Origin: an uncultured Alphaproteobacteria bacterium
GTDB taxonomy: Bacteria > Pseudomonadota > Alphaproteobacteria > Rhizobiales > Aestuariivirgaceae
Reading direction: 5' to 3'
DNA: 64,000 nt
Assembly (NCBI GenBank): GCA_937873445.1
Contig: CALMWF010000031.1
Coordinates: 1-64,000, forward strand
Made by a program: the position numbers and the translations under genes. Shown here in pieces: positions 25,842 to 27,931 of the stretch. Position 1 is the stretch's first letter. Every line of letters begins with the position of its first letter. The notes under the pieces are model-generated. The model made no database searches and had not been told where the DNA came from. It saw only the letters and a list, made by a program, of their open reading frames with translations.

Positions 25842-26774
25842 TCAGGCGGGTTTGGCCGGGGTCTTGCTTTGGCGCAGGGCGGCGAAGCGCCGGTTGGTTT
25901 CGGCCATCTCACCCTGCAGCCATTCGCGGAAGGCGCGCGCCGGAGCACTTTCGCGGGCCCCCCGGGCGCGGACGATCCAGTAGCTGCCATGATCGCGGAT
26001 GTCCACCGCAAAGGGGCGCACCAGCCAGTTTTCCAGCAGCGCATCGGTGCACAGGATCTGGTCGCCCAGGGCAAAGCCCTGTTCGGCCTCGGCCGCCTCG
26101 ATGGCCAGATGGTTCTGGAAGGTGGGGCCGCGCCAGTCCTCGATGCCGGTGACGCCGGCAGCGGCCAGCCAGTCGGTCCACCACTGCTTGCGGTCCTCGT
26201 GGAGCAGGGTGAAGTCGTTGAGGTCGGCGGGGGTGAGGTGGGGCCGGTCTTTGATGAGGCCGGGGGCGCAGACCGGAAAGATCATCACCTCCGACAGGCG
26301 CTGCATGTCCACGCCCTCCCAGTTGCCCTTGCCATAGCGGATGCCCAGATCCATCTGGTCGGCGCTGAAGTTCACCAGCCGGTTGGTGGGGTGGATGTGC
26401 AGTTCGATGTCGGGGTGAAGCTCGGCGAAGCGGCCCAGCCGCGACACCAGCCAGCGCGAGGCGATGGCCGGTTCCACCGTGACGTTGAGCGAGCGCACAT
26501 CGCCCACGGCGGCCGCCTCGCGGGTGGCCTCGGCAATCTGGTCGAAGAGGGGGGTGAGCCGGCTGCCGAAGTGGCGGCCGGCCTCGGTGAGTTCCACGCC
26601 GCGCCCGGTGCGGATGAAGAGCTGGGTGCCCAGCCATTCCTCCAGTTCGCGGATGTGGCGCGAGATGGCGGCGTGGGTGACAAAGAGTTCGGTGGCCGCG
26701 TCGGTGAAGCTTTCGGCGCGGGCGGCGGCCTCGAAGGCCTTGAGAGCGTTTAGTGACGGCAGGCGGCGGGCCAT
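25842..26774 (-). CDS. LysR-type regulator, GcvA-like
   Basis: Encodes 310 residues from ATG 26774. The N-terminal helix-turn-helix reads LPSLNALKAFEAAARAESFT then HAAISRHIRELEEWLGTQLF, followed by the effector-binding domain from about residue 95. The GcvA/AmpR subgroup usually controls a divergent gene. Upstream, 10 bases from the start, is a perfect T-N11-A dyad, and the divergent genes are two small tandem frames. The likely targets are therefore these small genes. It may also lead ykgJ and hisD. Confidence 0.92.
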   Translation of the reverse strand: MARRLPSLNALKAFEAAARAESFTDAATELFVTHAAISRHIRELEEWLGTQLFIRTGRGVELTEAGRHFGSRLTPLFDQIAEATREAAAVGDVRSLNVTVEPAIASRWLVSRLGRFAELHPDIELHIHPTNRLVNFSADQMDLGIRYGKGNWEGVDMQRLSEVMIFPVCAPGLIKDRPHLTPADLNDFTLLHEDRKQWWTDWLAAAGVTGIEDWRGPTFQNHLAIEAAEAEQGFALGDQILCTDALLENWLVRPFAVDIRDHGSYWIVRARGARESAPARAFREWLQGEMAETNRRFAALRQSKTPAKPA

Positions 26775-26783
26775 GACCTTGTG

Positions 26784-26796
26784 TAAGATTATCTTA
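26784..26796. promoter_or_regulatory. LysR-type box 1 (T-N11-A dyad)
   Basis: TAAGATTATCTTA is a perfect dyad, part of the longer 15-bp palindrome GTAAGATTATCTTAC at 26783-26797. It fits the T-N11-A consensus of LysR recognition sites. Its centre (26790) is 30 bp before the -35 of the first small gene, so about -65 from the predicted start of transcription. It also lies just upstream of the LysR start codon, suitable for autorepression. Confidence 0.7.
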
Positions 26797-26819
26797 CGGC
26801 CCACGCAAGAACTTGCCGT

Positions 26820-26848
26820 TTGTCCTCCACCGGCTGTGCCCCCATGTT
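26820..26848 (+). promoter_or_regulatory. Predicted promoter of small gene 1
   Basis: TTGTCC (26820-26825), 17-bp spacer and CATGTT (26843-26848). The -35 and its flank CGTTTGTCC are identical to those of the second small gene. The weak -10 suits an activator-dependent promoter. Confidence 0.5.
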
Positions 26849-26873
26849 CCGGCTGAGAAAGGGAGGAAGGCCG

Positions 26874-27020
26874 ATGAACTGGATCTTTGCGAGCTATGGC
26901 ATGGCCTATGGGGTGGCCTGCGGGTTGCGGCGGGAACGGACCCGGACCGGGCGGCGTGACCGCTTCCCGTCAGCGCCGTTGGGGGCGGATGACGGTAAAG
27001 GAAAGATCACCGACACATAA
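26874..27020 (+). CDS. Small protein 1, MNW-type, unknown function
   Basis: Encodes 48 residues from ATG 26874, with GGGAGGAAGG six bases upstream. The first 12 residues MNWIFASYGMAY resemble the start of the next small gene (MNWVFGAYANVY). The rest is arginine-rich (RRERTRTGRRDR) and then polar, with no recognised domain and no clear membrane helix. The TAA stop is part of the second LysR-type box. I do not recognise the family. The shared start, ribosome-binding site and duplicated promoter support it being real. Confidence 0.55.
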   Translation: MNWIFASYGMAYGVACGLRRERTRTGRRDRFPSAPLGADDGKGKITDT

Positions 27021-27030
27021 CATTTCCTTA
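27018..27030. promoter_or_regulatory. LysR-type box 2 (T-N11-A)
   Basis: TAACATTTCCTTA has the same TAA-N7-TTA frame as box 1 and matches it at 10 of 13 positions. It is embedded in a wider imperfect inverted repeat, GACACATAA paired with TTACGTGTC (27012-27036). Its centre (27024) is again exactly 30 bp from the next -35. It overlaps the stop codon of small gene 1. Confidence 0.6.
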
Positions 27031-27053
27031 CGTGTCATGTAGCTTAAAGCCGT

Positions 27054-27082
27054 TTGTCCCCGGCCATTGAAGGGATCATATT
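27054..27082 (+). promoter_or_regulatory. Predicted promoter of small gene 2
   Basis: TTGTCC (27054-27059), 17-bp spacer and CATATT (27077-27082), preceded by the same CGT as in the first unit. Transcription would begin near 27089, about 36 bases before the start codon. Confidence 0.6.
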
Positions 27083-27124
27083 GGGGTCATCAAACGGACC
27101 CGCATGGGGTCACAAGGAGATGTT

Positions 27125-27250
27125 ATGAACTGGGTTTTCGGCGCTTATGCCAATGTCTATCACACCGCCATGATGCAGGAGCAGAAGGCGCAGCACGCCG
27201 TTCCGGCCCGCAAGGCTGGTGCTCTGGCCCGTCTGTTCGGCCGCGGCTGA
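27125..27250 (+). CDS. Small protein 2, MNW-type, unknown function
   Basis: Encodes 41 residues from ATG 27125 with a strong AAGGAG ribosome-binding site. The sequence has an aromatic, amphipathic N-terminus (MNWVFGAYANVYHTAMM), a polar middle (QEQKAQHAV) and a basic C-terminus (ARLFGRG). It shares its opening with small gene 1. There is no signal peptide or known domain. A strong terminator 26 bases downstream makes it a complete single-gene transcription unit, which supports it as a real gene despite its size. Confidence 0.7.
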   Translation: MNWVFGAYANVYHTAMMQEQKAQHAVPARKAGALARLFGRG

Positions 27251-27276
27251 TCGCGCCTCGCATTCTGTTCTGAAAC

Positions 27277-27313
27277 AGGCTCTGGGAAGCGCTGTCTTCC
27301 ACAGGGCCTTTTT
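27277..27313 (+). terminator. Intrinsic terminator after small gene 2
   Basis: AGGCTCTGGGAAG pairs with CTTCCACAGGGCCT (one G-U pair, one bulged A) around a six-base loop and is followed by TTTTT. It separates the small genes from the ssb promoter seven bases on. Confidence 0.85.
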
Positions 27314-27319
27314 CGTCAC

Positions 27320-27448: not shown

Positions 27449-27931
27449 ATGGCAGGCTCGGTGAACAAGGTCATTCTGGTGGGCAATCTGGGCCGCGACC
27501 CGGAGGTGCGCCACACCCAGGACGGCAAGACCATTGTCAATCTGTCACTGGCCACCAGCGAAAGCTGGAAGGACCGCAATTCCGGTGAGCGCAAGGAGCG
27601 CACCGAATGGCACCGGGTGGTGATTTTCAATGAGAACCTGGCGCGCATTGCCGAGCAGTATCTGAAGAAGGGCTCCACGGTTTACATCGAGGGCCAGTTG
27701 CAGACCCGCAAATACACCGACAAGGACGGGGTGGAAAAATATTCCACCGAAGTGGTGCTGCAGAATTTCCGGGGCGAACTGACGCTGCTGGGCGGCCGGC
27801 CGAGCGAGGGGGGCGGGGCCTCCTATGGCGGCGATGATTTCGGTGCCTCTGGCCCCATGGAGCGGCCGCGCGGCGGCGGTTCCAAGCCCGCCAGCTTCAC
27901 CCGCGATCTTGACGACGAAGTGCCGTTCTGA
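27449..27931 (+). CDS. ssb: Single-stranded DNA-binding protein
   Basis: Encodes 160 residues. The OB-fold covers residues 1-112 ([60 protein letters not shown]). A glycine/serine linker leads to the acidic tip DLDDEVPF, which docks partner proteins such as RarA, encoded about 9 kb upstream. The SOS box in its promoter predicts induction by DNA damage. The ribosome-binding site is AGAGGAGAG. Confidence 0.97.

Follow-up and report, generated by a model that had tools for sequence, protein, structure and literature searches.

A gene for a LysR-type regulator that stands back to back with two small, similar genes raises the question of what the regulator controls, and whether the product that matters is an RNA or a protein. 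The locus lies in the window, by which is meant the whole 64,000-nucleotide stretch of alphaproteobacterial DNA that was analysed. The regulator (25842-26774, minus strand, 310 aa) matches Pfam HTH_1 and LysR_substrate and passes the cut-off of the GcvA family, with 316.5 bits against NCBIfam NF008352 (cut-off 288); its best PDB match is 8y6u, "Glycine cleavage system transcriptional activator" (E 2.7e-56). Divergent from it on the plus strand are small gene 1 (26874-27020), which encodes 48 amino acids (MNWIFASYGMAY...), and small gene 2 (27125-27250), which encodes 41 (MNWVFGAYANVY...), each behind a purine-rich Shine-Dalgarno sequence. The common downstream neighbor, ssb (27449-27931, plus strand, Pfam SSB), begins about 200 bp beyond gene 2. 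A first-pass annotation had described both frames, each starting MNW(I/V)F, opposite the LysR gene, and had proposed that the regulator controls the two of them; the coordinates it gave are correct. The reading favored here, with a probability of roughly three in four, is that of a divergent unit of the gcvA-gcvB type, in which a self-repressing regulator activates small-protein genes in place of the GcvB RNA.

Two control regions of one design

Control region 1 (26780-26850, plus strand) holds the inverted repeat GTAAGATTATCTTAC, centered at 26790, followed by a -35 element TTGTCC (26820-26825) and a -10 element CATGTT (26843-26848). In control region 2 (27014-27084, plus strand) the box is centered at 27024, with TTGTCC at 27054-27059 and CATATT at 27077-27082. 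The TAA-N7-TTA boxes that had been noticed ahead of each small gene are present as described: TAAGATTATCTTA at 26784-26796, 9 bp from the start codon of the regulator, and TAACATTTCCTTA at 27018-27030. Their half-sites are TAAG-n5-CTTA in box 1 and TAAC-n5-CTTA in box 2, and the TAA stop codon of gene 1 (27018-27020) doubles as the left half of box 2. The agreement of the two units at 27 of 42 positions also holds, 60 mononucleotide shuffles of both regions having reached 24 at best, and the 17-bp spacer to CATGTT or CATATT is confirmed by reading the sequence. The distance of exactly 30 bp from box center to -35 applies to TTGTCC, which is taken here as the -35, but not to the C of CGTTTGTCC (at 26817 and 27051; two occurrences on the plus strand of the window and one on the minus strand), to which it is 27 bp. 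At an offset of 30 the repeat pairs at five of five positions in region 1 and at three of five in region 2. A promoter scan at sigma-70 consensus strength listed neither small-gene promoter.

The second unit ends, as had been claimed, in a strong intrinsic terminator, a hairpin with a U tail at 27270-27315 on the plus strand; the stretch 27258-27316 folds at -23.9 kcal/mol (z -3.05). A simple terminator scan did not list it, nor did it list any plus-strand terminator after gene 1.

The window unit has the geometry of E. coli gcvA-gcvB, namely 30 bp, a 17-bp spacer and a divergent gene. E. coli K-12 has the repeat ATTAGTTTTTTTAAT, then TTGAGC 30 bp on and, past a spacer of 17 bp, TATAGT; gcvB starts 7 bp after TATAGT. 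In both systems a GcvA-family regulator faces a small divergent transcript, and the repeat is centered 30 bp before the -35. Unlike the E. coli system, the window has its cassette duplicated and would deliver a small protein rather than GcvB RNA. The half-sites also differ, TAAG/CTTA in the window as against ATTAG/CTAAT in E. coli, and the window boxes do not fit ATTAG-n5-CTAAT; the CTAAT half-site is present at several other alphaproteobacterial GcvA loci. Excerpts of PMC5002191 describe an E. coli GcvA that represses its own gene and, with glycine, activates gcvB; the repeats named there are two, IR1 and IR2.

How specific the control region is was assessed with a model of 71 bp built on 33 selected sites, which align over that length without gaps. 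The alignment comprises the two window sites and 31 of 37 others; two sites anchored on the wrong GTTTG, four out of register and, where relatives are duplicated, their second copies were left out, so that the absence of gaps is in part due to this selection. Run on 61 genomes with stricter filters, the model gave 39 matches below E 1e-8 in 34 of them, every one beside small genes. Ten of these sites lie outside the model (G001, G028, G020, G003, G021, G036 and the second copies of G014, G005, G010 and G023). The next match, at 5.9e-4, is beside an f10 relative (G045) that is likewise not in the model, weaker ones start at 0.0096, and with these filters the 61 genomes yielded no further full-length site. 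The window genome has exactly two matches, 26782-26849 (E 1.3e-11) and 27018-27083 (E 3.9e-13), which are regions 1 and 2 and belong to the training set. On this sequence evidence a single target, a local one, appears to offer the regulator a full site.

When offsets of 28 to 32 were tried on 43 different sites from 38 loci, the repeat scored best 30 bp before the -35 in 37 sites, 29 bp in four and 31 bp in two, and 18 of the 43 had at least four of five pairs at 30. The exceptions all fall in the group of G005, G010, G023 and G016, whose repeats have a poor right half; in the second copies of G005, G010 and G023 the stretch from repeat to -35 is shorter by one base.

A conserved small protein and its duplication

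With the regulator alone as query, 31 relatives were fetched from genome contigs, whose source titles name Aestuariivirga, Taklimakanibacter and various Rhizobiales or other alphaproteobacterial bins. Orthologs at 68% identity or more account for 28 of them; the rest are L089 and L090 (38%), where the MNW pattern had no match, and L091 (26%). All 28 orthologs are faced by a divergent small ORF of the window's type (26 by pattern, L063 and L086 by reading), and the start of ssb lies in the upstream stretch at 27 of these loci, L088 being the exception. A search of close genomes, which the first-pass annotation had recommended, thus finds the small frames as well as the boxes kept, so that their absence from relatives, one of the outcomes named there as refuting the proposal, did not come true. 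Across a wider set, most of it found through the small ORF itself, 38 of 38 loci in three families (f1, f5, f38) carry such an ORF.

In the window's genus, whole-genome searches located the unit in 33 of 37 genomes, counting the one that holds the window, and did not find it in G009, which is 66% complete, in G015, where the regulator match is 38% at best, or in G026 and G033. Among seven genomes drawn from other genera of the family it is present in G277, G397 and G361; from G061, G196, G385 and G419 it is absent, and a close regulator was not found there either. Two genomes of other families, G040 and G177, also have it. Run against 397 genomes of the order, a family profile detected the small protein in 16 (E 0.01 or lower), a search of limited reach that missed G040 and G013.

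The small frames vary as coding sequences do. Over 27 genomes the mean entropy at first, second and third codon positions is 0.47, 0.20 and 0.76. Between the window genome (G000) and its nearest relative (G014), pN/pS is 0.26 for gene 1 and 0.19 for gene 2, silent change thus exceeding amino-acid change in both window copies, and codons 1-15 of gene 2 show no amino-acid change at all. The counts behind these ratios are small, and in other pairs the ratio ranges from 0.06 to 0.86. Gene 2 matches the MNW family profile, of which it is a member, at E 1.7e-18.

Twenty-one aligned members share an invariant M-N-W, Y8 and Y12 and mostly a short basic tail; some other relatives start MNN, MYN, MNR or MSW. 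The products had been said to match no known family, and Pfam, NCBIfam, PHROG and PDB indeed gave no convincing match. Stray single-member matches (best E 0.017 in Pfam, 0.089 in PHROG and 0.93 in PDB) are weak and are put down to chance. Membership of DUF1127 was also considered and rejected: PF06568 matched none of the 21 members at E up to 1, and profile comparison with hhalign gave nothing. The predicted structure has two helices at low confidence (pLDDT 67). Their amphipathicity is not clearly above that of shuffled sequences, 3.5% to 49% of which reach the observed moment (38 proteins). The MNW proteins, 41-52 aa long, form a previously undescribed family that likely has a dedicated regulator. 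As to their action, a guess by analogy would be that they are small adaptors modulating a partner protein or RNA, as is reported of some DUF1127 proteins.

Certain relatives show variants of the arrangement. In one subclade (L069, L062, L071, L074, L079) a convergent gene, presumably of the RidA family since its sequence reads like RidA, separates the small gene from ssb. Its 3' end accounts for a conserved stretch beyond the small gene that had been considered as an RNA element. In G045 and G037 (L116, L117) short divergent ORFs, MLTFIIRLYVEALQTLL... and MFHAIEMFVDMIERLLF..., occupy the same slot and may be diverged MNW proteins. Another GcvA-type paralog, in G015 (L120), has a different short divergent ORF (MYKIVDRLRAAYANMTQ...) behind CGTTTG, starting 112 bp upstream of the regulator match.

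The small gene is single-copy, as in Aestuariivirga litoralis KCTC 52945 (L069), except in five of the 38 loci (G000, G014, G005, G010, G023). At the junction in all five, copy 1 ends in a stop codon that serves as the left half-site of box 2; the common tail is kept in copy 2, whereas that of copy 1 is new. In the window, accordingly, gene 2 has the common ARLFGR-type C-terminus and gene 1 a diverged one. The regulator tree forces two changes for the origin of the duplication. G016, which is single-copy and sister to three duplicated genomes, retains by eye a stretch like box 1, and because of this remnant and of the shared junction between stop codon and box 2 the history can be read, short of proof, as one gain and one loss in G016. 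A third, ectopic MNW copy (MNWLFEAYSNVFNTAMGQ..., copy-1 type) adjoins a TetR-like gene in G023 (L249:1444-1585, G023:C4); the control-region model had no match on that contig.

It is possible, if on the doubtful side, that gene 1 is a decaying duplicate without function and that gene 2 alone matters. The absence of the common tail, several differing N-terminal positions and the single-copy state of G016 with its leftover box 1 would fit such decay, but gene 1 has the low pN/pS given above, in a comparison that includes a frame-keeping 12-base indel, and promoter 1 retains a perfect repeat. The constraint on the tail of gene 1 is in part its overlap with box 2.

A proposed circuit and its alternatives

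In the gcvA-gcvB-type reading we infer the binding of the regulator, the direction of regulation, the inducer and the function of the proteins. The regulator would bind the inverted repeat, some 65 bp ahead of the small gene's transcription start, and, because the repeat sits 9 bp from the regulator's own start codon, would thereby repress itself. With inducer (glycine in E. coli) it would also occupy a second site beside the weak -35 TTGTCC and there recruit RNA polymerase, giving a short mRNA for a protein of 41-52 aa. The whole cassette of repeat, promoter and gene is duplicated in tandem in the window genome, so that one regulator would drive two diverging paralogs. Against this reading stand the different half-sites, the irregular repeats of the G005, G010, G023 and G016 group, the loci elsewhere in the class that have no CGTTTG or no DUF1127 match, and the second GcvA-family regulator of the window genome, for which no such partner was found. 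With frames and boxes conserved in close orthologs and a control region that is confined to these promoters, the proposal that the regulator at 25842-26774 controls both small genes is supported. It was incomplete in leaving out the gcvA-gcvB layout, the usual single-copy state and the DUF1127-like proteins that occupy this slot beside other GcvA-family genes.

The small gene occupies the same slot as gcvB, and the working product might instead be the transcript itself, a regulatory RNA that is perhaps partly coding. Codons 8-12 in the relatives are strongly fixed synonymous codons, mostly TAT TCA AAY GTT TAC. Over 27 genomes the serine of codon 9 is TCA in 20 of 21 cases and the valine of codon 11 GTT in 24 of 26, while neighboring regulator genes (up to 23 of those genomes) use TCA at 12% and GTT at 13%, a bias that is not expected of a purely coding sequence; the consensus fold of 14 transcripts, moreover, reaches z -3.4 against column shuffles. 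Codons ending in A or T are, however, common near the starts of genes, and the biased codons are lost in the window copies. It is the 3' part that gives the strongest fold signal (z -4.1, as against -2.7 for the 5' part), variation peaks at third codon positions, and pN/pS in the window is 0.19-0.26. At the Rfam gathering threshold the window yields one tRNA only, neither GcvB nor any other regulatory RNA, and six relatives yield no match. A transcript as the working product is judged unlikely. Decidedly improbable is the idea that the regulator mainly controls other genes, the small ORF encoding a leader peptide or having arisen as a by-product of autoregulation. It draws on E. coli, where GcvA also controls gcvTHP according to excerpts of PMC5002191, but it sits poorly with the lack of a further full-length site in the searches of 61 genomes, with the terminator that ends gene 2 ahead of ssb, and with the persistence of the small ORF where the next gene is the convergent RidA-like one.

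A regulator of another kind also invites comparison. VtlR/LsrB of Brucella and Agrobacterium, as far as excerpts of PMC7486931 and PMC12595884 report, activates AbcR RNAs and DUF1127 small proteins. It is likewise LysR-type, and its direct targets include small RNAs and small proteins, but the targets predicted in the window are not DUF1127. Its site, GCAT-N3-TG-N3-T, was not seen by eye in 26780-26850 or 27014-27084, and this together with the GcvA score would argue against orthology with VtlR/LsrB.

The divergent slot across Alphaproteobacteria

Upstream regions of 70 alphaproteobacterial GcvA-family genes, several of them paralogs within one genome and hence not independent, were compared with those of 30 control LysR loci. 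CGTTTG on the divergent strand occurs at 37 of the 70 and at 2 of the 30, and CAAACG at 7 and 2. A divergent DUF1127-like ORF is found at 32 of the 70 and at none of the controls, with a search model seeded with five of the ORFs counted; PF06568 matched 31 of 33 such ORFs at E up to 0.01. Motif and ORF coincide at 24 loci, CGTTTG stands alone at 13 and DUF1127 at 8; 33 loci are without CGTTTG and 38 without a DUF1127 match. The 70 include the window genome's second GcvA-family regulator (G000:C8:203243-204136; L160, L250), which scores higher, at 353 bits, and for which no small divergent partner was found.

The inverted-repeat score again peaks at 30 bp, with a mean of 2.89 of 5 over the 37 CGTTTG loci (first CGTTTG per locus only) and 3.56 in the window's clade set, whose 32 entries include two loci twice (L108 = L081, L109 = L088), duplicates removed from the recount of 43 sites given above. 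A second peak falls at offset 19. At least four of five pairs occur at offset 30 in 14 of the 37 loci, against at most four loci at any other offset from 12 to 49; the E. coli site has four of five, and 69 random positions showed no peak, with 1 of 69 at offset 30.

In a quick tree of 56 regulators, 29 of them from the class-wide 70, the window's clade comprises 20 rows (SH-aLRT 100), 18 with MNW partners and two with other short partners (MLTF, MFHA). All 22 rows labeled DUF1127 fall across the branch from it, the labels of L118, L123, L130 and L131 having been given by reading and two of these backed by further evidence. The window's clade carries the MNW family in the slot used by DUF1127 elsewhere. 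The two kinds of pair share slot, small-protein output and, where CGTTTG is present, geometry, but the small proteins are of different families and hhalign shows no relation between them.

Many alphaproteobacterial DUF1127 proteins are in this way tied to GcvA-type regulators by one conserved promoter layout, and a small-protein output makes the role of such circuits directly testable in this class. A search of the open-licence literature, outside which most subscription papers lie, returned no paper on DUF1127 together with GcvA; the parts of open-licence papers examined on DUF1127 and LysR regulators concern VtlR/LsrB, not divergent GcvA-type pairs. DUF1127 proteins are reported to act on the PhoR kinase (excerpts of PMC12501420), and CcaF1, named as DUF1127 in a reference title, to bind RNA (excerpts of PMC10253847). 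A tentative and rather unlikely extension is that the control region is one ancient slot with an exchangeable output, GcvB RNA in Gammaproteobacteria and DUF1127 or MNW proteins in Alphaproteobacteria, all doing a comparable job, such as tuning uptake or translation when amino-acid supply changes; proteins and an RNA would then be functional counterparts. In the window genome two DUF1127 genes lie elsewhere and were not seen adjoining a GcvA-type gene, and G361 and G177 each hold both kinds of pair, MNW and DUF1127.
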